Positions 1 to 53,205 of a stretch of 64,000 nucleotides of DNA are shown here, in pieces. The notes beneath the pieces were generated by a model. The model was not told where the DNA came from, searched no databases, and worked only from the letters and a program-made list of their open reading frames with translations. The stretch is taken from NCBI GenBank assembly GCA_963930775.1, contig OZ005707.1, positions 1,612,001 to 1,676,000 of the forward strand, in the 5' to 3' direction. Source of the DNA: Cliona cf. orientalis. Its lineage: Eukaryota; Porifera; Demospongiae; Clionaida; Clionaidae. Position 1 is the stretch's first letter, and the number at the start of each line of letters is the position of its first letter. A program made the position numbers and the translations under genes.

Positions 1-2373
1 TCCAGCAAGATCAAACCACAACCAATACCGAATCGTCCAGCTCCACTTCCTCCCAATGAAGTGGCACAGCTGACTGCAAAGAAGAGAAAGAAGGAGAAGA
101 TCGAGCACAGCAAGATTTCTGAGGAGAGCTCTAGGGACTCACTCCAGATCAAGATCGAGATGGTTCTCTCAGTTCTTTCACTGGTCAATTCCGATAAGGG
201 GCAACAGAATGATGCTGATGCTGCCAAGTTCCTACTGGCCCTCTCCCGTAGCGCAGATACCTGCGGCGTGATGAGGCAGCCTGCCTGCATGAATATGCTC
301 ATTCAGATCATGCACAATATCGAGCACAAAGGTGACAAGTCACACATCGAGGTGAGACACAGAGCTGCAGAGACCATGCGAAACATCATTGAATCAACCG
401 GCGAAACCAAACAGGGCAAGCAGGAGCTGTGTGTGCTAGGTGCCCTTGAGAAGGTCCGCAGCCACTGTGATATGCTCTTTGATATAATCGTCTCCCACTC
501 AAATGGCAGATTTGATGCTGCGGAAGCTGAAAGAATCCAGTCTGCTTGCGATTCCATGCTTCAGCCAATCAGAAAGCTCATCAAATATTCCAGCGACAAG
601 GAAAAGTACAGACCAGCTATGCTTTTCTTGGGGGCCATCCAAGCTATGGCCGAGGTCCTGATAGTCAACTATCGCCTAATCTCCGTCCAGACGGTAGCAA
701 CTCACGCTGGAGAGAAACCAATCTGCCATTCATCAAAGGTGGTCACGGTAGTCATCTCCATACTAATCAACCTCACCTATGGAGACGTAAACAACAAATC
801 CAACCTCTGCCTGCTGCCTGACTTCCTCAAGTCACTCGTCTTCCATGTGAGACAACAAAACGAAAGCATCACGTCTAGCTCTGCTCAGGTGCTCCGAAAT
901 CTCTCCTGGAGGGCCAGTGCCGTAGTCAAGAATGCTCTTTTGGAGTATGATGCAGCTGTAGCGCTCGTTTCTGCTATCAAGTACGTCAAGGAGGAGCCTA
1001 CACTTCAACACATCACCAGTGCTCTGTGGAATCTGTCTGCTCACTCTGTCGATAGCCGACACAGAATCTGCACCACTCCCAATGGAATCCAGCAGCTAGT
1101 TAAGCTCTTGTCTTACTCTAGCACTTCACACACGACCATCGTCGTTGAGAATGTTGGTGGCATCCTGAAGAATCTCTCTGGTGTCATCATGGGAGAAGAG
1201 AAGTACAGAAGAAAATTCCGTATTGCTGGAGGTCTCGAGAAAATCAAGAAGCACTTGAAGTCCAAGAACAAGACAGTACTTGCCAATGCGACTGGTATCC
1301 TGTGGAACCTCTCCGCTCGCTGTCCAGAGGACCAGAAAGCATTCTGGGAACTTGGTGTCATTCCACTTCTCGACGTGCACAAGACATCAGAGCACAAGAG
1401 CATAGCTGAGAATTCTAGAGGAGCTCTGAGAAATTTGCTTGCTTTCGGTCAAACAAACGGCTGGACCAGCAAATCAGATGTGTTGGGTTACAACCTCAAG
1501 ACGCAGAAGGGCCTCTCCAAGTCTCTCTGCTACTCGGCCAACTACACTTTCGAGCACTCTCCTCAACAAAGCCAAACCTCGAAGCAAAGCAACGAGTCGC
1601 TACACAGCCGATCGAGCCAGCCTCTTCCGGGGAGAAGTCGCAGCAACACAGTAGCTGCTGGTGGATCCACAGTATCCCTCTCCCAGAGAGAAGCTCGAAG
1701 ACAAGAAGCCAGCAACTATCAGTACCCACATGAAGAAGACACTGATTTTGACTCGGTCCCAGTTCAGAAGAATCGTCTCAAGCTATCTCGTATCTCTTCA
1801 GCTCCTCAGGCGTCCATCAAGAAAGACGACCTCGAGATGGATGAGTGGTCTAGCTACATGCCTTATTCTGGTAACACCAAACATGGAGCAGGAGTTCCCG
1901 TTTCAGTGCCGACAGGTGCTGTGGTCTACAAAGACGAGCCAGCACGATTGAAGACCAAGAGAACATCCAAGTCACACGGTGGTGGCCCAAGGAATAGCTC
2001 TCATCCCTACTCCCTCTCTCAGTCTGTCTCCAGCTCCGAGCTTCAGTCTGTGGCTGGAGCAGCTCACCATCTCACCAGCCAGGCAAGCGAAGCCACCACA
2101 AGCCTCTCAGCCCTCGAATCAAAGATCGTCGAGTCATTCGATCCCAACCAAAGAACTCACGAGGTGTACGCTGATCTAGACCCAGAAGGCGAGGATGACA
2201 GTGATGCCGATATTGATTATCCAATCAGACGTGACCGTGAAGAGGTTTCCTACCCCGAGGGTTACCCTCGCAGCCGAAGGTCGAGTGCAGTGGGGGACAA
2301 ACAAAGCCAAGGTAAAGGTAGCCATGGTACCAGCAGTCTTGCCCTCGATGGCAAAGACAACGGTAGGCCATGA
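1..2373 (+). CDS. APC: Adenomatous polyposis coli (APC) armadillo domain and C-terminal tail, 5' partial
   Basis: The reading frame is open from base 1, so the gene enters from the left edge; the visible 790 codons end at TGA 2371-2373. The protein carries a run of armadillo repeats with recurring ALWNLSA, GILWNLSAR and ALRNLLA helices, in the order and spacing of the APC armadillo domain (roughly residues 40-490). In animals this domain binds partners such as Asef and KAP3, and APC scaffolds the beta-catenin destruction complex. The remaining ~280 residues are Ser/Gln-rich and low complexity. I see no 20-residue beta-catenin repeats, no SAMP Axin-binding motifs and no basic microtubule-binding region, so this APC is much shorter than the vertebrate form. 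The whole visible part is one exon, as is most of vertebrate APC. The family call is firm; the lack of C-terminal motifs is by eye. Confidence 0.9.
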   Translation, partial: SSKIKPQPIPNRPAPLPPNEVAQLTAKKRKKEKIEHSKISEESSRDSLQIKIEMVLSVLSLVNSDKGQQNDADAAKFLLALSRSADTCGVMRQPACMNMLIQIMHNIEHKGDKSHIEVRHRAAETMRNIIESTGETKQGKQELCVLGALEKVRSHCDMLFDIIVSHSNGRFDAAEAERIQSACDSMLQPIRKLIKYSSDKEKYRPAMLFLGAIQAMAEVLIVNYRLISVQTVATHAGEKPICHSSKVVTVVISILINLTYGDVNNKSNLCLLPDFLKSLVFHVRQQNESITSSSAQVLRNLSWRASAVVKNALLEYDAAVALVSAIKYVKEEPTLQHITSALWNLSAHSVDSRHRICTTPNGIQQLVKLLSYSSTSHTTIVVENVGGILKNLSGVIMGEEKYRRKFRIAGGLEKIKKHLKSKNKTVLANATGILWNLSARCPEDQKAFWELGVIPLLDVHKTSEHKSIAENSRGALRNLLAFGQTNGWTSKSDVLGYNLKTQKGLSKSLCYSANYTFEHSPQQSQTSKQSNESLHSRSSQPLPGRSRSNTVAAGGSTVSLSQREARRQEASNYQYPHEEDTDFDSVPVQKNRLKLSRISSAPQASIKKDDLEMDEWSSYMPYSGNTKHGAGVPVSVPTGAVVYKDEPARLKTKRTSKSHGGGPRNSSHPYSLSQSVSSSELQSVAGAAHHLTSQASEATTSLSALESKIVESFDPNQRTHEVYADLDPEGEDDSDADIDYPIRRDREEVSYPEGYPRSRRSSAVGDKQSQGKGSHGTSSLALDGKDNGRP

Positions 2374-3407
2374 ACGATGAACTATATAATATTATGTATG
2401 TCTGCAAAATAACCACGAAAAAAAAAAGCATCTTTGAAACTTATATCCGTATTATCCAGTAACTAATTAGATACCAAGGGATCACCTTTGGTTCATTTGT
2501 GATTAACTTACTGCACGTCATAATAATAATATCTGTACCGATCATCATTATACACTGGACTTCGTATTGTTTTGTTTTGTTTGTAAACATACTTGTACGT
2601 TTTCATGATTGTATGACATTGTTTTATTGTTAGCATGCAAAAGAAAAAAAGAACCATGTATTTTTTAAATCACTGAATGTATTAATTTTTTGCCTTAAAA
2701 GCACTTATAAGTTTCTATGTCATGTCAGTATTACAATTGAACTATATTTTTGTCCAGTATAAAAATGATTATTGTCAAGTATGCATTAATTTGCTTTAGT
2801 TGTGAGTAATTAATACGATTGTCTCTTATGCCAGTTAAGAGTTGTCTTTACTTCCACATTAATAATTATTATTATTTTATTGAAACTCAACTATGCGCAT
2901 TGTCGTCAATTAAATTCCACGCAGAGCATGACTTAATAATAATTATTATTATGCACAAAATGACTATTCTGGTCCGGGACTGTACCCCAGGACATGTATA
3001 ATAATTATGTACGTACATGCCTTTTTGGCTAGCTAGGACATGCGTGTATGACATATTGTGATTGTGCAATGTTATGCATGCTCTAATATAATAGTGGGAG
3101 AGACCACAAACTTTTCACACACGCTTCAAATTAATTATTAATTAATGTTAACTAACTACCAACACATGCACAGTATCAACTATGACATTGTACCAATCAC
3201 ACAACATGGCTCCACTAAAGACAAGTATCAAACATGATACACAAGTCACATGACAACTATAATATACCACAACAATAATATTATTAACAGCTGAATAACT
3301 TGAGCAACACAACAAATTACTTAATAGTCACTACAGAATCACGTAGCTAGCCGTAATATTGCACATAGTATTGTAGCTAGGTGCTCAAATAATCGACGTA
3401 AATTGTC
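2374..3407. other. Intergenic spacer between convergent APC and pyruvate kinase genes
   Basis: AT-rich spacer with short AT repeats and no convincing ORF. It must contain the APC 3' UTR and the pyruvate kinase 3' UTR because the two genes converge here. I saw no clear canonical polyadenylation hexamer close to the APC stop. Confidence 0.5.
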
Positions 3408-8572
<5,165 letters not shown>

Positions 8573-46219: not shown

Positions 46220-46914
46220 CATGGAGGGAAGGCACCATTTAAGATGATTAGGGGAGCAGCTGCTGTAGACAGGAATGTGGCTTACTTTATGAGCTGTGGT
46301 GGTCAACTATTTTCATATGACTCATCTACACAGAGGATGAGTAAGCTTCCTCAGTGTCCCCATTGGTCCAGCAGCTTAGTAATTGTAAGATGTCTCCTCA
46401 CAGCTATTGGTTCAGGAAATGATTTGTAGTTAAGTATTGTCCAGGACCATGATAATAAAAAGTCGTGGGTGGAGTACTTTCCACATATGCCAACAAAGCA
46501 ATATAACGCTGCAGCAGTGACACAAAACAGCATCCCATAGTGGCTGGTGCATGGGATGAGTGGATCAAATCGACTGGGTACGGTGGAAGTTATGGACACA
46601 GAAACTTTAATCTGGTCAACAACCACTAACTTTCCCGGGTCACCCTGGCTACTGCAGGGCATCAGCAACCACCTGTGGAGACCAACAGTACATTCTAGGA
46701 GGATTTGACAAGGGTGGTTCCACAAAATCATATTGACCTGTTCACTGCCAAAGCTCCTATACAGTCAGGCAATGAAACATCGTCTAATTCTGATTCAGTG
46801 TGATACAGAGTTGCTGATGTCCCAGTGTACTGCTCTACCTATGCAGCTGTCAAAGGAGATTTAGTAGCAGTTGGCGGAGCAGACCTTGAGGGCAGGAGCA
46901 CAGTAGTTGTTCAC
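46220..46914 (+). pseudogene. Kelch-repeat gene fragment, 5' part, disrupted by the MULE
   Basis: Kelch-type beta-blade text is recognisable in shifting frames: VAYFMSCGGQLFSYDSST, LPQCPHWSSSLVIVRCLLTA, MPTKQYNAAAV, GSNRLGTVEVMDTETLIW and STYAAVKGDLVAVGG. Several stops and frame changes occur, so the copy was already decayed. The final part STVVVH ends at the MULE target site (46906-46914), and the kelch text resumes past the element at 53127. Kelch repeats of this wording accompany kinase domains in sponges, as far as I recall, but no kinase domain is seen here. Confidence 0.65.
46906..46914. repeat. Left 9-bp target site duplication of the MULE
   Basis: GTTGTTCAC, repeated exactly at 53127-53135. 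It is part of the kelch coding text on both sides, so it was a single copy before insertion. Confidence 0.9.
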
Positions 46915-47049
46915 GGTCATGCAGAGTTTGGCATAAAACAGAAGAAATTCTCTTGCTGTACTAAGACAAATTTTTATGCCAATCCTTTCTTGCTGCACCA
47001 AGGGACACTTTTATGCCGATCTTGCCTTGCTGTACAGCAAGGCACTTTT
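46915..47049. repeat. MULE left terminal inverted repeat
   Basis: Aligns with the complement of about 52992-53126. Shared blocks include TTGCTGTACTAAG, TTTTTATGCCAATCCTTTCT and TTGCCTTGCTGTACAGCAAG. Confidence 0.9.
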
Positions 47050-47561
47050 ATATGCCATCATCTCTAGCATAAAATGCCTTCTTATAATACTATACTTGTA
47101 TTTATTCAAAAGGGGAAATTTTATGCCAGATAAATAATGATACGGAGCTTACCCTAATTAATTTTATTACAGGAATATACCCAATACATTTTGAGGGATT
47201 ATACATCACAATTGGCATAAAATTTTGCCATATTGTATCTAATGAAAGGGAAAATTTTATGCCATAATAATATTATAGCCTATTGCAATTGACAATTATT
47301 ATCCTGCATGCATGATGCATTCATGGCATAATAATTATTTATTATTATGATACACATCTGGCATAATTATAATAGTTCATTGTGATAATCATATTATAAT
47401 CATGAATATATAATTTATTATAATCATGCATACCAGGAATCAATATTATGCTGATACAGATTAAATTTTAATTTAGGATAACATAATTACTATTTCGATA
47501 TGATCATGATTGATGCATGCTTATGAAATGTTCAGTGCATGGTCCACCTAGATATTCCCAC

Positions 47562-48995
47562 CTACACTGTTAGACGTACATCCTTATCTGGAAATATTAC
47601 AAAAGCTTCTTTGTCATCATCATCAAATTCAATTTTCCATTGTCCATTAAAGACATCAAAATTGACCAGGGTTCCTTTGTACCATATTCCATCATCGTAT
47701 CTATCTTCAACTCTCTGGCCAATCCCAGCAAAATCAGCATTGCTTATTTTCTTCCTCTTGGTTGATTTAGGCAATACATTGGCATCCGAATCAGAGTCTG
47801 ATGAGTCCACATAGTGATATCGCTTTTTTGGAGCTTTTATGCAAGTTTCGTTCATAGAGGAGGAGCCACAGAAATTGCTGGTCTTGTCTGGAGGTCCAAA
47901 CTGGGCTTGGTAGTCTGGATTGACTGAATGGGACCGCTGAATCTTCCTTTTAGCTGCACAACTTCGTCGGCTTTCCTCTGATATTTCACGATAGGATAAA
48001 CTAAATTGTTTCTCTGCTGCTATATATGAAAGTGCAAGACACTTACCTTTCTTGTAGACATATTCCATGGCCATTTTCAAACACGTAGGGAATGATTGTT
48101 TGCTATCTTGATTGATTCTTTCTACACCATTGGTGTCCCTTGGAGCCTTCTCATAAGCACTGGAGGGATCACGAAATGCATCACACAGCATGCGTAGGTG
48201 AGGAAGTCTTGTCCACCATTCAACCCAATGGGTTGCCTCTTTCCATGCTGCAGCAATCTCTTTCCAATGGTCCAATACTTCTGCTGGTACGGTAACATTT
48301 GGTATCTCCCCGATGTTCACGGCACCTTTCAGTGAATTGAATAGCTTCATCACGTCAGATTTACTCTTTTGAAGTGGAATAGCTCTAGAAATTATACAAA
48401 ACGCTTCACGACTTAGGCAACGAGTTTGATTAGGAAGAGGGCTGCTGACTTTGTCAGCAACTCTTTGGTAAGAGCGGCCATAGTGAACTTTACATCCAAT
48501 GAGAAGTTTATCACAGAGTTTTTCACCGATAGCAAGCTGTAATCCTTTCCTTTCAGCATCACTCCAGTCTAAGACTATTCCTTTTAAAGTTTTCCCAATA
48601 CTAAACTCTTTGTGGTCTTCTTTACATTGATCAAATACAGCTTTAAACGCTACAGAATAAAAATTTGCATCTTCTTTATTGCTTCGAACTCTCGCAACCG
48701 CTACCCATCTCATCACATTATAATCAAATGCTGTAACATTCCAAAGGTAGGGTAGATCTGTATTTTCATTATAAGTCATGTCTACTTCTATATACTCAGA
48801 CTTTGCCAGGATGGAGCTCATTAGAGGAGACATAATAAGCTGGTATACCAGTGAAGACGTAAGTGCATATTTCCTCATAATATTATATGGTCGTCCTCTG
48901 ACTCTGTACTCACTTGAAACATTGCTAGATCCCTCAACAACCTGATCTGCACTGTCTATGGTATTTGCTAGCGTTTCCATTTCCAACAGAATCAT
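47562..48995 (-). CDS. MULE transposase with C-terminal Tudor-like domain
   Basis: The 477-codon frame holds the Mutator-type DDE core: first Asp in EYIEVDMTYNENT, second in GIVLDWSDAERKGLQLAI, and the Glu region THWVEWWTRLPHLRM followed by the typical DTNGVERINQDSK. It would cut and join the element's ends. The last ~55 residues (GQRVEDRYDDGIWYKGTLV onward) look like a Tudor-type barrel, which in other proteins reads methylated histones or arginines and could direct insertion. The frame begins inside the end of the upstream frame (48934-50067). The N-terminal zinc and winged-helix parts lie there, so a frameshift separates the two halves. Confidence 0.8.
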   Translation of the reverse strand: MILLEMETLANTIDSADQVVEGSSNVSSEYRVRGRPYNIMRKYALTSSLVYQLIMSPLMSSILAKSEYIEVDMTYNENTDLPYLWNVTAFDYNVMRWVAVARVRSNKEDANFYSVAFKAVFDQCKEDHKEFSIGKTLKGIVLDWSDAERKGLQLAIGEKLCDKLLIGCKVHYGRSYQRVADKVSSPLPNQTRCLSREAFCIISRAIPLQKSKSDVMKLFNSLKGAVNIGEIPNVTVPAEVLDHWKEIAAAWKEATHWVEWWTRLPHLRMLCDAFRDPSSAYEKAPRDTNGVERINQDSKQSFPTCLKMAMEYVYKKGKCLALSYIAAEKQFSLSYREISEESRRSCAAKRKIQRSHSVNPDYQAQFGPPDKTSNFCGSSSMNETCIKAPKKRYHYVDSSDSDSDANVLPKSTKRKKISNADFAGIGQRVEDRYDDGIWYKGTLVNFDVFNGQWKIEFDDDDKEAFVIFPDKDVRLTV

Positions 48996-50153
48996 GTGCC
49001 TTTTTATGTCCCTTACTGTTAGAGACTACTTCACTCTTTTTCAATGCTTGCTTTCTAATGGAGTTCAGTCGTCCGGAATGAGTAGCAGATAAATCAGCAG
49101 CTGATGGACGATATTCAATTCCCTGTCCATTGGAGATCTGTGAAGTTGTCAATGATGGATTTGCAATAACTGCTGACGTAATTTCCTGGCGTACTTTCTG
49201 GGGAATTCTATGTGACGCAATTTTTCCATGTGAATGGAAGTTTTCTGTTGCTGGAAAACTGTGCTTTCTCAGCAGGCCACCAACCCACCTTCGATTATCG
49301 TTCATATCTTCAGGTCTCAGATACACAAATTCGACATCACAATCTGATACTTGAACCAATGGAGACTTGCTATGCTCACGACATGTATTACGGATTGTAG
49401 AATTGCACACAGTGTGATCACACTGTTCACATTTCTTGGCACCTTTACACTGTGCCCTATGGAACCATAATTTTTGTATCCCACTATCATTCTTTACCTC
49501 TATTAGTTGTTTTGTTGAACTATTTTTGCTGAATTGCACGTCAGACCATAGGAAATCTGGGTCAGATGCTGTATAATGTGGCAGCTTAGTGATATCTTCA
49601 ACATACCATAGCATATTATGAGCTGGAAATGAAAATGTTCCCAAAAACTGATAGTTCTCTTTATCCGTAATCTTTTTCCAGTTCTCTTTTAACTCAAGGA
49701 GCTTCTTAACAAGCGGTAGTAAATGGCAACCTTTTCCTCTTCTTTTTCTTGGAGCAGTATGATCATCATCAACTCTGTGGGAGGTTGAACAAATAGGTGA
49801 TAAATGACTATCATGTGAATTTTCAACTGAAAAAGAAGGGAGCATTACTGAAGCACATGTTTCAATTGCCTTGATTCCTTTATCGTTAGGAGAAAGTGAA
49901 GCATACACTCCATTGCTATTGCCAAACTTTGCTGTCTTTATAGTACGTGTAATGTAGCCTGCAGCTGCAGCTTGTCGAATGAAGTTTCTCCACCAAGCCT
50001 TGCTCAGTCCTTTAGGACTCTTGCCGTACGCAGAAGTCTCATTCTTTTCAACTTGTATATCTTTCATCCATGTTAGCTGGCCTCCACGAATCCACTCTGC
50101 AATTTTGACTTCACCTCTATTTCCTAGCTCTTTTATGGCATCTAGCTAACAAC
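48934..50153 (-). CDS. RQC winged-helix and zinc-binding region of the MULE protein, frameshifted from its neighbours
   Basis: The open frame starts after a stop at about 50153 (first Met at 50067) and ends at 48934. Its first part, LGNRGEVKIAEWIRGG and SPKGLSKAWWRNFIRQAA, resembles the RQC winged-helix of RecQ helicases, although the helicase domain ends in another frame just upstream. A Cys cluster (CKGAKKCEQCDHTVC) suggests a zinc finger of the sort found ahead of MULE transposases. One-base frame changes at both ends (near 50140-50155 and 48935-48995) separate it from the helicase and the transposase. Either these are mutations in a decaying copy, or short introns or programmed shifts link the parts. 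Confidence 0.65.
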
Positions 50154-52322
50154 AACTTTAGTTCTGTGGCTCTATCTTCCATTTGGATGACACCCTGATC
50201 ACAGATATCACAACATTTGCCTGTGGATGTTGCATGGTCTTCACTTTCATCAAAAAGATTTACCAATACTTTTCGTCTGCATCTCCCTGATAAGTGAGAA
50301 TAGCAAAATTGCATGGCTTCACTAAAGTTCTTACTTGTGTCTGAAATTTCATTTATTCTATTTTGGCGAGCAAGGTCACCACTCCAGAATCCTACATGAT
50401 GAATATCTTCATCACAATAGAAGATATGTGCCTCTGAGTAGTTGCCATCCCTCCCAGCCCTTCCAAGCTCTTGGGCCCAAGCAGATATGGAGGGTGGCAA
50501 GCCATTCCTGATGACAAATCTGACATTTTCCTTGTTAATACCCAATCCAAATGCTCTTGTTGCCACAATCACGGGTACATCGCCACTTTTCCACCGCAGA
50601 TAAGCGTCACTTTTTTCTGATTCCTTCATTTTCCCATAGTATCCAATAGCATTCACTCCACGATCACGAAGAGCAAGTACTATAGGTCCGACATGAGTTG
50701 CAAAGTCAGTATAGATTATTGAACAGTCATTCTTTATCATGCCTGCAACTTGATCAGCAAATTCATTGAAATCACGGTGATCAAGACTAAAGGATTTACT
50801 AGGCCCTGTCGTTTTCTTGAAGTTGCATTGATGTACAGCTAAGTATATATTGGGTCTGTTCACAGAAGATTGTACTATTACTGGATTATTCAAGAATTTG
50901 GTAAGTTTACTAAAAATTGCAGGTGTTGCAGTGGCTGTAAGAGCCATGACAGGAATACCATCGAATAGTTGTGGAATTGTTTCACACTGTTGATAATGCT
51001 CTCTGAATCCATCCCACTCGTATATTATTAAGTGAGCTTCATCTATTGCTATTAGTCCCAATTGTTTATGTTCATGCAGGCTCTTGACTTTGTCCATATT
51101 CTTGGATTTACCAAACAACCATTCAGGACTCACAAATATTACTGAGGCTGGATTTTTTTGGTCAAATGCTCTTGTGTCAGCATCAGGATCAGTTTGAGCA
51201 GAGCCAAGAAATACTGCATCTATTCCTTTACTCTGTAACTCACGGGTTTGATCGTGCATTAAACTAATAGTTGGTGTTATTACAAGGGTGGTTTTCCCCA
51301 TATAAACAGCTGGAAATTGATAGCAGAGGCTCTTGCCTTTACCTGTTGGTTGAATAACCAGACAATTTTTCTTGTTGAGAACAGCATCAATTGATTCCTT
51401 CTGAAAGTCTTTAAATCGGGTATTACCAAATTTCTCTGCCAGCAAGAAGGTCTTTGTTGCCTCATTTACATCAACAGTACCAATTATTGAGTCAAATTCA
51501 TCGTCACCATTGAGCGAGAAGCTGTCGTTATTATCAACATTATTACTGGCAAGACTAGAGGATGTTTCCATTGTAGTCAAATCAGATTCAATACTGGTCA
51601 CTATCTAATATAGTACAATTATATTTTATAAAATTCAATTAATATACAATAATAATATAATTACCTCTATGGAATGATTTCTCCTTGATTTATGTTTGTG
51701 CCACATTTCATTACAGATCTGACAACGCATTGCTTCACATTCTTTACAATAATAGGTAGCATTTTCTCCACATGAGACACATTCATCTGCGAAGGTAAAA
51801 TTAACATAGTTCTTCGTTTTATGGCGACATAATGGTCTAATTTACCCAATACAATCTTGTGGTCATCATTACCACCACCTCCCATGCCCTTAATACAAAA
51901 GAAAACAGTAGTTCCATGCTTAATTCCTTGTGATGTGAGGGTAGAGTTGGGTTTCACAGCCTTTCCAGCGCAAATAAGAAGTTGCAATTCTATTGGTATG
52001 TCAAGAAGATCCTTCATAATCCTATAAAGAACTCTACCACGGCTCCTTCTACTCAATGTAATACACAGAGGTAAATGAGCAGCACCCTGAATGTATACAT
52101 CAATAGTTGTAGCGTGCCTGCAATAAAAAAAAGAGATAGGATATTAATTTGGTGCAGGGTCGCTTATGCGCATGCGCAATAACGGTAAATTCGCATCGGC
52201 GGCCTGTACGTACATACAAAAAATTAATAATAATGTGGTCTGATTAAAAACGAATAGATAGATAATTACCTGCCATCGTCCGCGAAATGTCTATCCTTCT
52301 TATGCTCGGGTGAACTGAACAT
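50117..52322 (-). CDS. Ubiquitin-like / B-box zinc finger / RecQ helicase protein of the MULE, 4 exons
   Basis: Exons: 52322-52270, 52117-51846, 51786-51665, 51604-50117, GT-AG with consistent phases; 644 residues. Exons 1-2 give a ubiquitin-like fold (TTIDVYIQGAAHLP, LLDIPIELQLLICAGK, then KGMGGGG, which recalls the ubiquitin LRGG end). Exon 3 is a B-box-type zinc finger: CVSC, CKEC and CQIC pairs, then WHKHKSRRNH. Exon 4 is a RecQ helicase: Walker A QPTGKGKS, DEAH in IDEAHLIIYEW, motif VI QELGRAGRDG, and the RecQ zinc cysteines CRRKVL and CCDICDQG. RecQ enzymes unwind DNA 3' to 5'. A Ubl with a Gly-rich end placed before the helicase could be cleaved off or act in cis. I know of no transposon with this combination, but could not search. 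Confidence 0.82.
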
Positions 52323-52991
52323 GTGGACACCAATTGCACATGTATAGAATACGCATTTAAGCATGACATCCATGAGAGCGATGACAAAGAGACAGAGCAA
52401 GATGATCCAGAGGAGTAGATGGGCAATAAATAGGGGGTTGAGCAGTATCTGACTGGTGGTAATATCCGGATTTGGAGGGGATGAGCTGTCCAGATGTCCA
52501 GATGCCTTGAAGACTCAGGAACTGAGGCTTTAGCTTGCTGTTCTGAAAAGAACAACCTCCCTGGCAAACACAGGAGAAAGAGAACCAACGCTATCTTCTG
52601 TTCTCATCTTAGTTTGAGACCGCCAAAATTTGACTGATTGTCCTGCGCATGCTTGACATCTGCAGCTAAAGCAGCCCCACCTCTATCTTAAGTTGGCACA
52701 CGCAACGCGCATGCTCGATTACTTATTAGCCACGCCCCTTTCTTGTCGCCTCGGCCCCGCGCGCAACTTCACGGTGTCAAGCAGAATTGCTTACCTTTCT
52801 TGAATATTCATTAAGGCAAGATTTTATGCCAAAACCTCACTGCGACTATGAAGTATAGTGGGTAAACCCGGTGATTAAGTTAATCAGGGTATGCTCCTGT
52901 AATTAAATGATCTGGCATAAAATTTTCCCTTTATAAATGTTAGTATAATTTGCAATCACAAGGCGATTTTAGGCTAAATTAGCTGGCATTA

Positions 52992-53126
52992 AAGTTTGCC
53001 TTGCTGTACAGCAAGGCAAGATTGGCATAAAAGTGTCTCTTGGTGCAGCAAGAAAGGATTGGCATAAAAATTTCCCTTAGTACAGCAAGGAAATTTCTTT
53101 AATTTTATGCTAAAATATGTACGACC
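52992..53126. repeat. MULE right terminal inverted repeat
   Basis: Inverted partner of 46915-47049; ends at the second GTTGTTCAC (53127-53135). Confidence 0.9.
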
Positions 53127-53205
53127 GTTGTTCACAAGTACAATCCAATAACTATTAGCTAAACTCCTGGAATATCAACGACATATCACATGGGTGCAGT
53201 GATGC
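53127..53205 (+). pseudogene. Kelch-repeat fragment, 3' part beyond the MULE
   Basis: Resumes the blade text VVHKYNPIT directly after the element, with a stop soon after. It shows the insertion interrupted a kelch repeat. Confidence 0.65.

Follow-up and report, generated by a model that had tools for sequence, protein, structure and literature searches.

The window analysed here, a 64,000-nucleotide stretch of contig OZ005707.1 from the sponge Cliona cf. orientalis, carries at 46915-53126, with minus as the coding strand, a DNA transposon in which a RecQ helicase is fused to a transposase probably related to those of the Mutator-like elements (MULEs). The joint claim, a RecQ-transposase fusion with a MULE relation, is assigned a probability of about 0.7. 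The domain order predicted for one polypeptide is a ubiquitin-like domain (Ubl) with a Gly-Gly end, a B-box, a RecQ part (two RecA domains, Zn-binding and RQC), a Cys/His-rich region, a DDE core with a CxxH motif and a Tudor-like tail. The copy in the window is, judging from its reading frame, a dead, decayed member of a family that was originally one open frame.

One Open Frame in the Relatives

When the protein sequence of the RecQ part was used as query, relatives were obtained in the same genome, with single open frames of 1329 amino acids (aa; three loci), 1310 aa and 1358 aa among them. The frames examined in full are those of L049, L050, L051 and L052; C10, the third locus of 1329 aa, is represented through a 969-aa part only. 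All four are free of stop codons and proceed from RecQ via the Zn-binding domain, RQC and the Cys/His-rich region to the DDE core and the Tudor-like tail, with Ubl and B-box exons upstream of the RecQ frame in each case (4/4). Two relatives from other sources, P0030 (1430 aa) and P0031 (1418 aa), are open in one frame from the Ubl to the Tudor-like tail, both of these domains having been detected there by a custom profile and by eye rather than by Pfam. P0039 (1404 aa) forms one open frame from the Ubl through the DDE core and ends without the Tudor-like tail, which is present at the C-terminus of most full-length rows. The polypeptide of the open-frame members is estimated at 1,400-1,550 residues. 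An earlier note on this DNA had described a Ubl-B-box-RecQ gene followed by a MULE transposase; the domains, their order and the common strand hold, and the two genes give way to the one continuous RecQ-transposase frame seen in the relatives.

Element Ends and Target-Site Duplication

The element is bounded by terminal inverted arms of 163 nt each (46913-47075 and 52966-53128), which are 85% complementary and are accompanied on their interior side by additional, partly complementary stretches. The outermost bases are GGTC at the left end, after GTTGTTCAC, and GACC at the right end, before GTTGTTCAC. This 9-bp duplication is exact, as the earlier note had claimed, and a perfect 9-mer would arise by chance in one fixed register with a probability of 3.8e-6. 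The inverted ends had also been recognised, their length of ~135 bp being corrected here to the measured 163 nt.

46906..46914, plus strand: left target-site duplication, 9 bp, GTTGTTCAC (sequence)
46915..47075, plus strand: left terminal inverted repeat, outer arm, starting with GGTC (sequence, arm comparison)
46951-46987 and 46988-47024: two 37-bp direct subrepeats of the left arm
52966..53126, minus strand: right terminal inverted repeat, outer arm, finishing with GACC (sequence, arm comparison)
53006-53042 and 53043-53079: two 37-bp direct subrepeats of the right arm
53127..53135, plus strand: right target-site duplication, 9 bp, GTTGTTCAC (sequence)

Gene Parts and Frame Breaks in the Window Copy

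52271..52374, minus strand: possible exon 1, start codon uncertain (open frame, GT donor)
51846..52117, minus strand: exon with the ubiquitin-like domain, Gly-rich end GMGGGG (open frame, junctions)
51665..51786, minus strand: exon with the B-box (ANCHR-like) zinc finger (Pfam PF00643, E 2.4e-5; junctions)
50117..51604, minus strand: start of the long last exon (Pfam; best PDB sequence match 1oyw)
about 50444-51409, minus strand: RecQ helicase core (Pfam)
about 50201-50338, minus strand: RecQ Zn-binding domain (Pfam)
49873..50136, minus strand: RQC winged helix, frame shifted in the window copy (PF09382, 3.9e-4, under cut-off)
48934..50145, minus strand: open frame with RQC, linker and the Cys/His-rich (zinc-like) region preceding the transposase (Cys/His pattern in the consensus)
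47562..49025, minus strand: open frame with the DDE transposase core, then Tudor (codons checked)
48780-48782, 48567-48569 and 48120-48122, minus strand: the DDE residues D, D and E
48492-48494 and 48483-48485, minus strand: C and H of the CxxH motif
47568..47732, minus strand: C-terminal Tudor fold, PHF1/PHF19/RDM15-like

The three splice junctions proposed earlier (52270/52117, 51846/51786 and 51665/51604) do have GT-AG in the sequence; exon 1 and the start codon are uncertain. Profile searches had been expected to recover Ubl, B-box and RecQ. In the window copy this came true for the B-box and for the helicase lobes (Pfam PF00270, E 2.8e-22; PF00271, E 4.8e-15), with RecQ_Zn_bind slightly below its cut-off (E 4.8e-5) and the chromo/Tudor-like tail likewise below (E 5.8e-4). 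Ubiquitin is weak here (E 0.015; 15.5 bits against a cut-off of 25.4 bits) and passes its cut-off in some relatives.

The window copy is frameshifted twice, near 50117-50145 and near 48934-49025. On the residue scale of L049 these breaks fall at ~469 and ~840, those of the other near-full copies at ~500 and ~1023 (L009), ~675 (L010), and ~919 and ~985 (L028), no two at the same place. The possibility that the shift from RecQ to RQC is programmed was considered and rejected, as the frame continues across this place in the open relatives and in each of the three other near-full copies.

Copies and Mobility

A DNA search of the genome of the window (216.8 Mb, 149 contigs), in which the best 40 of 74 candidates were scored (103 matches), revealed near-full copies on C2 (99% identical), C5 (95%) and C6 (in pieces, 90-96%), together with several fragments and many end-only copies. 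Three Wnt regions identify this genome as that of an animal. All copy counts rest on this search and on the RecQ-protein search, both of which score the best candidates only. Ubl, B-box, RecQ and DDE regions are found in 4/4 near-full copies, the window copy included, and the helicase must therefore be regarded as part of the family; helicase, Ubl and B-box recur across five diverged families of this genome as well as in relatives elsewhere. The search for other copies with these ends, which had been suggested as a check, thus came out in favour of the element, and capture of the helicase in this copy only is ruled out by the same copies and diverged relatives.

The ends were inspected for 20 insertions. 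Perfect 9-bp duplications flank seven of them (the window copy, L010, L049, L050, L020, L016 and L017), L016 and L017 having one duplication and flank in common; four have both ends and no duplication (L009, L018, L019 and L052), and in nine an end is missing or unresolved (L013, L021, L023, L024, L025, L026, L027, L028 and L051). L049 and L050 both have the 1329-aa frame open; their identity is 99.6% across 8.0 kb and 97.4% in the final 1.5 kb, and they occupy separate sites with differing 9-bp duplications, which argues for recent movement of an open-frame element. In the L049/L053 copy, one end is 95.9% like the other over 395 nt.

Along these lines, gaps between matched blocks indicate further insertions inside L010 and L009, and in L009 the duplication is absent despite 99% identity to the window copy. 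L018, L019, L020 and L021 have ends in common with the element and contain no DDE or RecQ match; L020 shows its own perfect 9-bp duplication, CTTCTAAAG, and L019 contains a 369-aa frame with no Pfam match that appears hAT-like by eye only.

RecQ Helicase and its History with the Transposase

Among PDB sequences, the RecQ frame of the window matches 1oyw, the E. coli RecQ, with E 5.4e-59 and WRN with E 3.4e-56. RecQ core, Zn-binding domain and RQC are all detected by Pfam, PDB sequence and model, RQC and Zn-binding often under cut-off; for HRDC, the pieces of the window copy yielded no Pfam match up to E 1. The trees of RecQ and transposase have 12 of 17 splits in common, compared with a shuffled maximum of 3, and the RecQs of the elements stand on the side of the WRN-like rows. 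These are quick trees, with P0057 and the RecQ piece of L056 as long branches and with less than half of the DDE columns covered in P0033, P0037 and P0044. The ratio of nonsynonymous to synonymous substitution (dN/dS) indicates purifying selection in close pairs; the pairs listed have at least about 150 codons and 30% identity, and silent sites have reached saturation in comparisons between families. The ATPase motifs are conserved. At the level of sequence, the association of helicase and transposase is shown to be old.

In P0057 (EukProt, 1729 aa) a protein kinase domain is combined with RecQ and the same transposase, the first catalytic D being changed to N. It is perhaps a domesticated or mis-joined gene, and a search with P0057 as query returned only P0057 itself.

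Ubiquitin-Like Domain and B-Box

Pfam ubiquitin (PF00240) exceeds its cut-off in P0039, P0053, P0058 and P0052, reaching E 5.3e-13 in P0039. PDB sequence matches of the Ubl comprise ubiquitin, NEDD8 and, weakly, Ub-eL40 (E 0.02-0.1), and the Ubl of L052 aligns with ubiquitin through LRGG. In the predicted structure of P0053 the strands and helix follow one another as in the beta-grasp. The Ubl terminates in Gly-Gly in 16/16 loci read and in 14/14 database proteins with a detected Ubl, which had initially been chosen by a Gly-Gly..CxxC pattern; a scan of all 144 proteins with the Ubl profile matched the same 14. Outside Gly-Gly, the mean identity among 20 rows is 24%. P0051 begins at the B-box, and P0057 has neither Ubl nor B-box. 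The last Gly-Gly is followed by the first Cys of the B-box within 2-3 residues in the 14 database proteins and after about 10 in the window family. The B-box is ANCHR-like (PF22586, 9.4e-7 in L049; ZFYVE19 in the PDB, 9e-4).

Transposase and Superfamily Placement

A MULE is defined by target-site duplications of 8-11 bp, long terminal inverted repeats and a DDE core that is homologous to those of MULE transposases and has CxxH between its second D and the E; the element shows the 9-bp duplication, the 163-nt arms and such a core. Aligned with hhalign against 5 of the 58 PF10551 loci of this genome, the D, D, C..H and E residues come into register with a score of 41.7, and none of 100 shuffles exceeded 22.7. 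The element is labelled MULE-related rather than a certified member because the cut-off of PF10551 is not reached; a Pfam profile cut-off is an annotation rule and not a biological feature. Of the MULE identity put forward earlier, the Mutator-like character stands (duplications, ends, DDE/CxxH, hhalign), while the Pfam MULE profile was missed. Nor did Pfam SWIM match the window copy at E 1.

Fold searches listed no MULE transposase, which counts neither way. The best match in the viral library was the bracovirus protein O92526 (E 1.6e-10, probability 1.00, root mean square deviation 19.5 over the whole chain), which may itself be a Phantom element; Phantom is reportedly known from insect viruses. 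The idea that the DDE part came from a virus or phage was set aside, since this best viral-library match fits a transposon residing in an insect virus.

PF10551 MULE matches also occur within open frames of 1190-1308 aa (G000 C1:14189595, C1:14284149, C6:528560 and C2:6606199), and these long frames might be further fusions.

Proposed Mechanism and Alternative Explanations

The presumed roles of the domains in movement can be sketched as follows. The DDE part would cut and join the GGTC ends, the target cuts being staggered by 9 bp. The tethered RecQ would open or remodel the long repetitive inverted ends or, alternatively, drive strand-displacement repair, by which the gap left on excision is filled with a new copy of the element. 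By binding methylated histones, Tudor may steer insertion. The Ubl could be removed after Gly-Gly by a deubiquitinase-like host protease, as in the ubiquitin-ribosomal protein fusions, or else dock the complex to ubiquitin-binding proteins of the host; cleavage after Gly-Gly, as read from the sequence, is given slightly less than an even chance. The Gly-Gly end and the purifying selection would fit roles in gap repair and in the ubiquitin/SUMO system, and the combination of domains suggests an element equipped with DNA-repair and ubiquitin tools of its own. Tentatively, and with the odds rather against it, one may picture an animal Mutator-like lineage whose transposase, with a BLM/WRN-like helicase built in, is made in the form of a ubiquitin-fusion precursor, host proteases freeing a dedicated Ubl modifier, and the B-box-RecQ-RQC-transposase-Tudor remainder cutting, finding methylated chromatin and driving its own gap repair.

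In this context one should recall the old question of how cut-and-paste transposons gain copy number through the double-strand-break repair of the host; in Drosophila, BLM helicase matters in the repair that follows P-element excision. A transposase covalently joined to RecQ would put this repair link within one protein, and the element would bring along a large part of the repair step for which other cut-and-paste transposons depend on the host. A Ubl leader with a conserved Gly-Gly would place a DNA transposon among the few ubiquitin-fusion precursors and show use of the ubiquitin system by a mobile element.

Several observations weigh against a MULE-related fusion with a ubiquitin-type leader. 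With hhalign the probability is only moderate (53%); run in the other direction, the comparison scored 33.6 over 84 columns at 14% probability (shuffled maximum 24.6). Even at E 1 the transposase is unmatched by PF10551, the Pfam MULE profile, whose 58 places in the genome include no RecQ-transposase locus. Pfam ubiquitin passes in only 4/9 relatives scanned and not in the window copy, Gly-Gly served as the anchor of the Ubl alignment of 20 rows, and all nine rows behind the Ubl profile have Gly-Gly. The Walker A motif of the window copy reads PTGKGKS, compared with PTGSGKS in 26/26 aligned relatives. To these are added the four insertions with both ends and no duplication, and the likeness to AcademH. 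AcademH encodes a helicase and makes 9 or 10-bp duplications (PMC10045372), and a RecQ helicase is present in Academ transposons (PMC3627910); the element has both features. An animal transposon of the known AcademH type, in which the novelty would be confined to Ubl, B-box and Tudor, is nevertheless unlikely in view of the profile match of the DDE core to canonical MULEs and of a separate locus with RecQ and DUF6589 in the same genome (L056), whose DUF6589, taken here to be the Academ transposase, is unlike the DDE of the element (scores of 17.8 and 15.1, both lower than the best that shuffled sequences reached). L056 (G000 C4:4121800-4126300) is a second kind of RecQ locus, with RecQ frames on the plus strand at 792-1364 and 1398-2264 and, facing them on the minus strand, the DUF6589 gene at 2323-3354 and 3984-4499 (Pfam 2.1e-34 and 1.1e-9); through the DUF6589 link it is possibly an AcademH element.

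That helicase, Ubl and B-box are passengers from a captured host gene, without a role in movement, has a precedent in the Pack-MULEs, which are MULEs capturing gene pieces; the same domain order in widely diverged families, the congruent trees, the purifying selection in close pairs and the conserved ATPase motifs and Gly-Gly make it improbable here. The Ubl might also stay uncleaved, as a docking domain for the proteasome, Cdc48/p97 or ubiquitin-binding repair factors with Gly-Gly as a flexible joint, a serious possibility although well short of even odds. Uncleaved Ubl domains are common in nuclear proteins, and the extended Gly run of the window-type families (GMGGGG, GLGGG) is linker-like; on the other hand, Gly-Gly sits at the position of the ubiquitin C-terminus, L052 having LRGG where ubiquitin has it, and is kept while the remainder has drifted to the low identity given above. 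Finally, the perfect duplication, the intact ends and the presence of the DDE and CxxH residues could be taken to mean that the window copy works autonomously as it is. This is scarcely credible, its long exon being frameshifted twice where relatives have an uninterrupted frame; neither place is broken in the three other near-full copies, which also argues against programmed shifts.

Comparison with Known Systems

A RecQ helicase fused to a Ubl with a Gly-rich end had been thought undescribed for MULEs. RecQ as such is known in DNA transposons, namely in AcademH and KolobokH (PMC3627910, PMC10045372, PMC9587614), and in this respect the claim has to be narrowed; what stands is that the listings and passages of the literature searched (including PMC10799480, PMC4522978, PMC4079192 and PMC12210899) yielded no description of a Mutator-type transposase fused to RecQ or to a Gly-Gly Ubl, the original AcademH and Phantom reports and most subscription journals lying outside that literature. 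The combination of Ubl, B-box, RecQ, transposase and Tudor was likewise not found within that literature.

With the Mutator/MULE elements, especially the Phantom-type elements of animals, the element shares 9-bp duplications, long inverted ends, the CxxH register and the RNase H fold; it adds the N-terminal Ubl, B-box and RecQ-RQC as well as the Tudor tail, and gives no Pfam MULE or SWIM match. AcademH is alike in the RecQ-type helicase and the 9-10-bp duplications, and differs, by description only, in that the text consulted on C/DxxH does not list Academ as one of the superfamilies with this motif and that Ubl, B-box and Tudor are unmentioned in the AcademH descriptions at hand. Kolobok, too, has C/DxxH, and KolobokH is a DDE transposon with RecQ, known from fungi only; its RecQ is encoded downstream of the transposase, and that of a red-algal Kolobok on the opposite strand (PMC9587614), whereas in the element RecQ is N-terminal to DDE. 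Kolobok was excluded on the basis of this order and of the 9-bp duplications, which are of varied sequence in contrast to the TTAA target of Kolobok. BLM, WRN and RecQ have core, Zn-binding domain and RQC fold in common with the element, which is distinguished by its fusion to a transposase and by the lack of an HRDC match. In the ubiquitin-eL40 and ubiquitin-eS31 precursors, the downstream part is not a helicase-transposase as it is here, where cleavage is predicted only; they resemble the element in the Gly-Gly end of the Ubl and in a zinc-binding domain that follows within a few residues.

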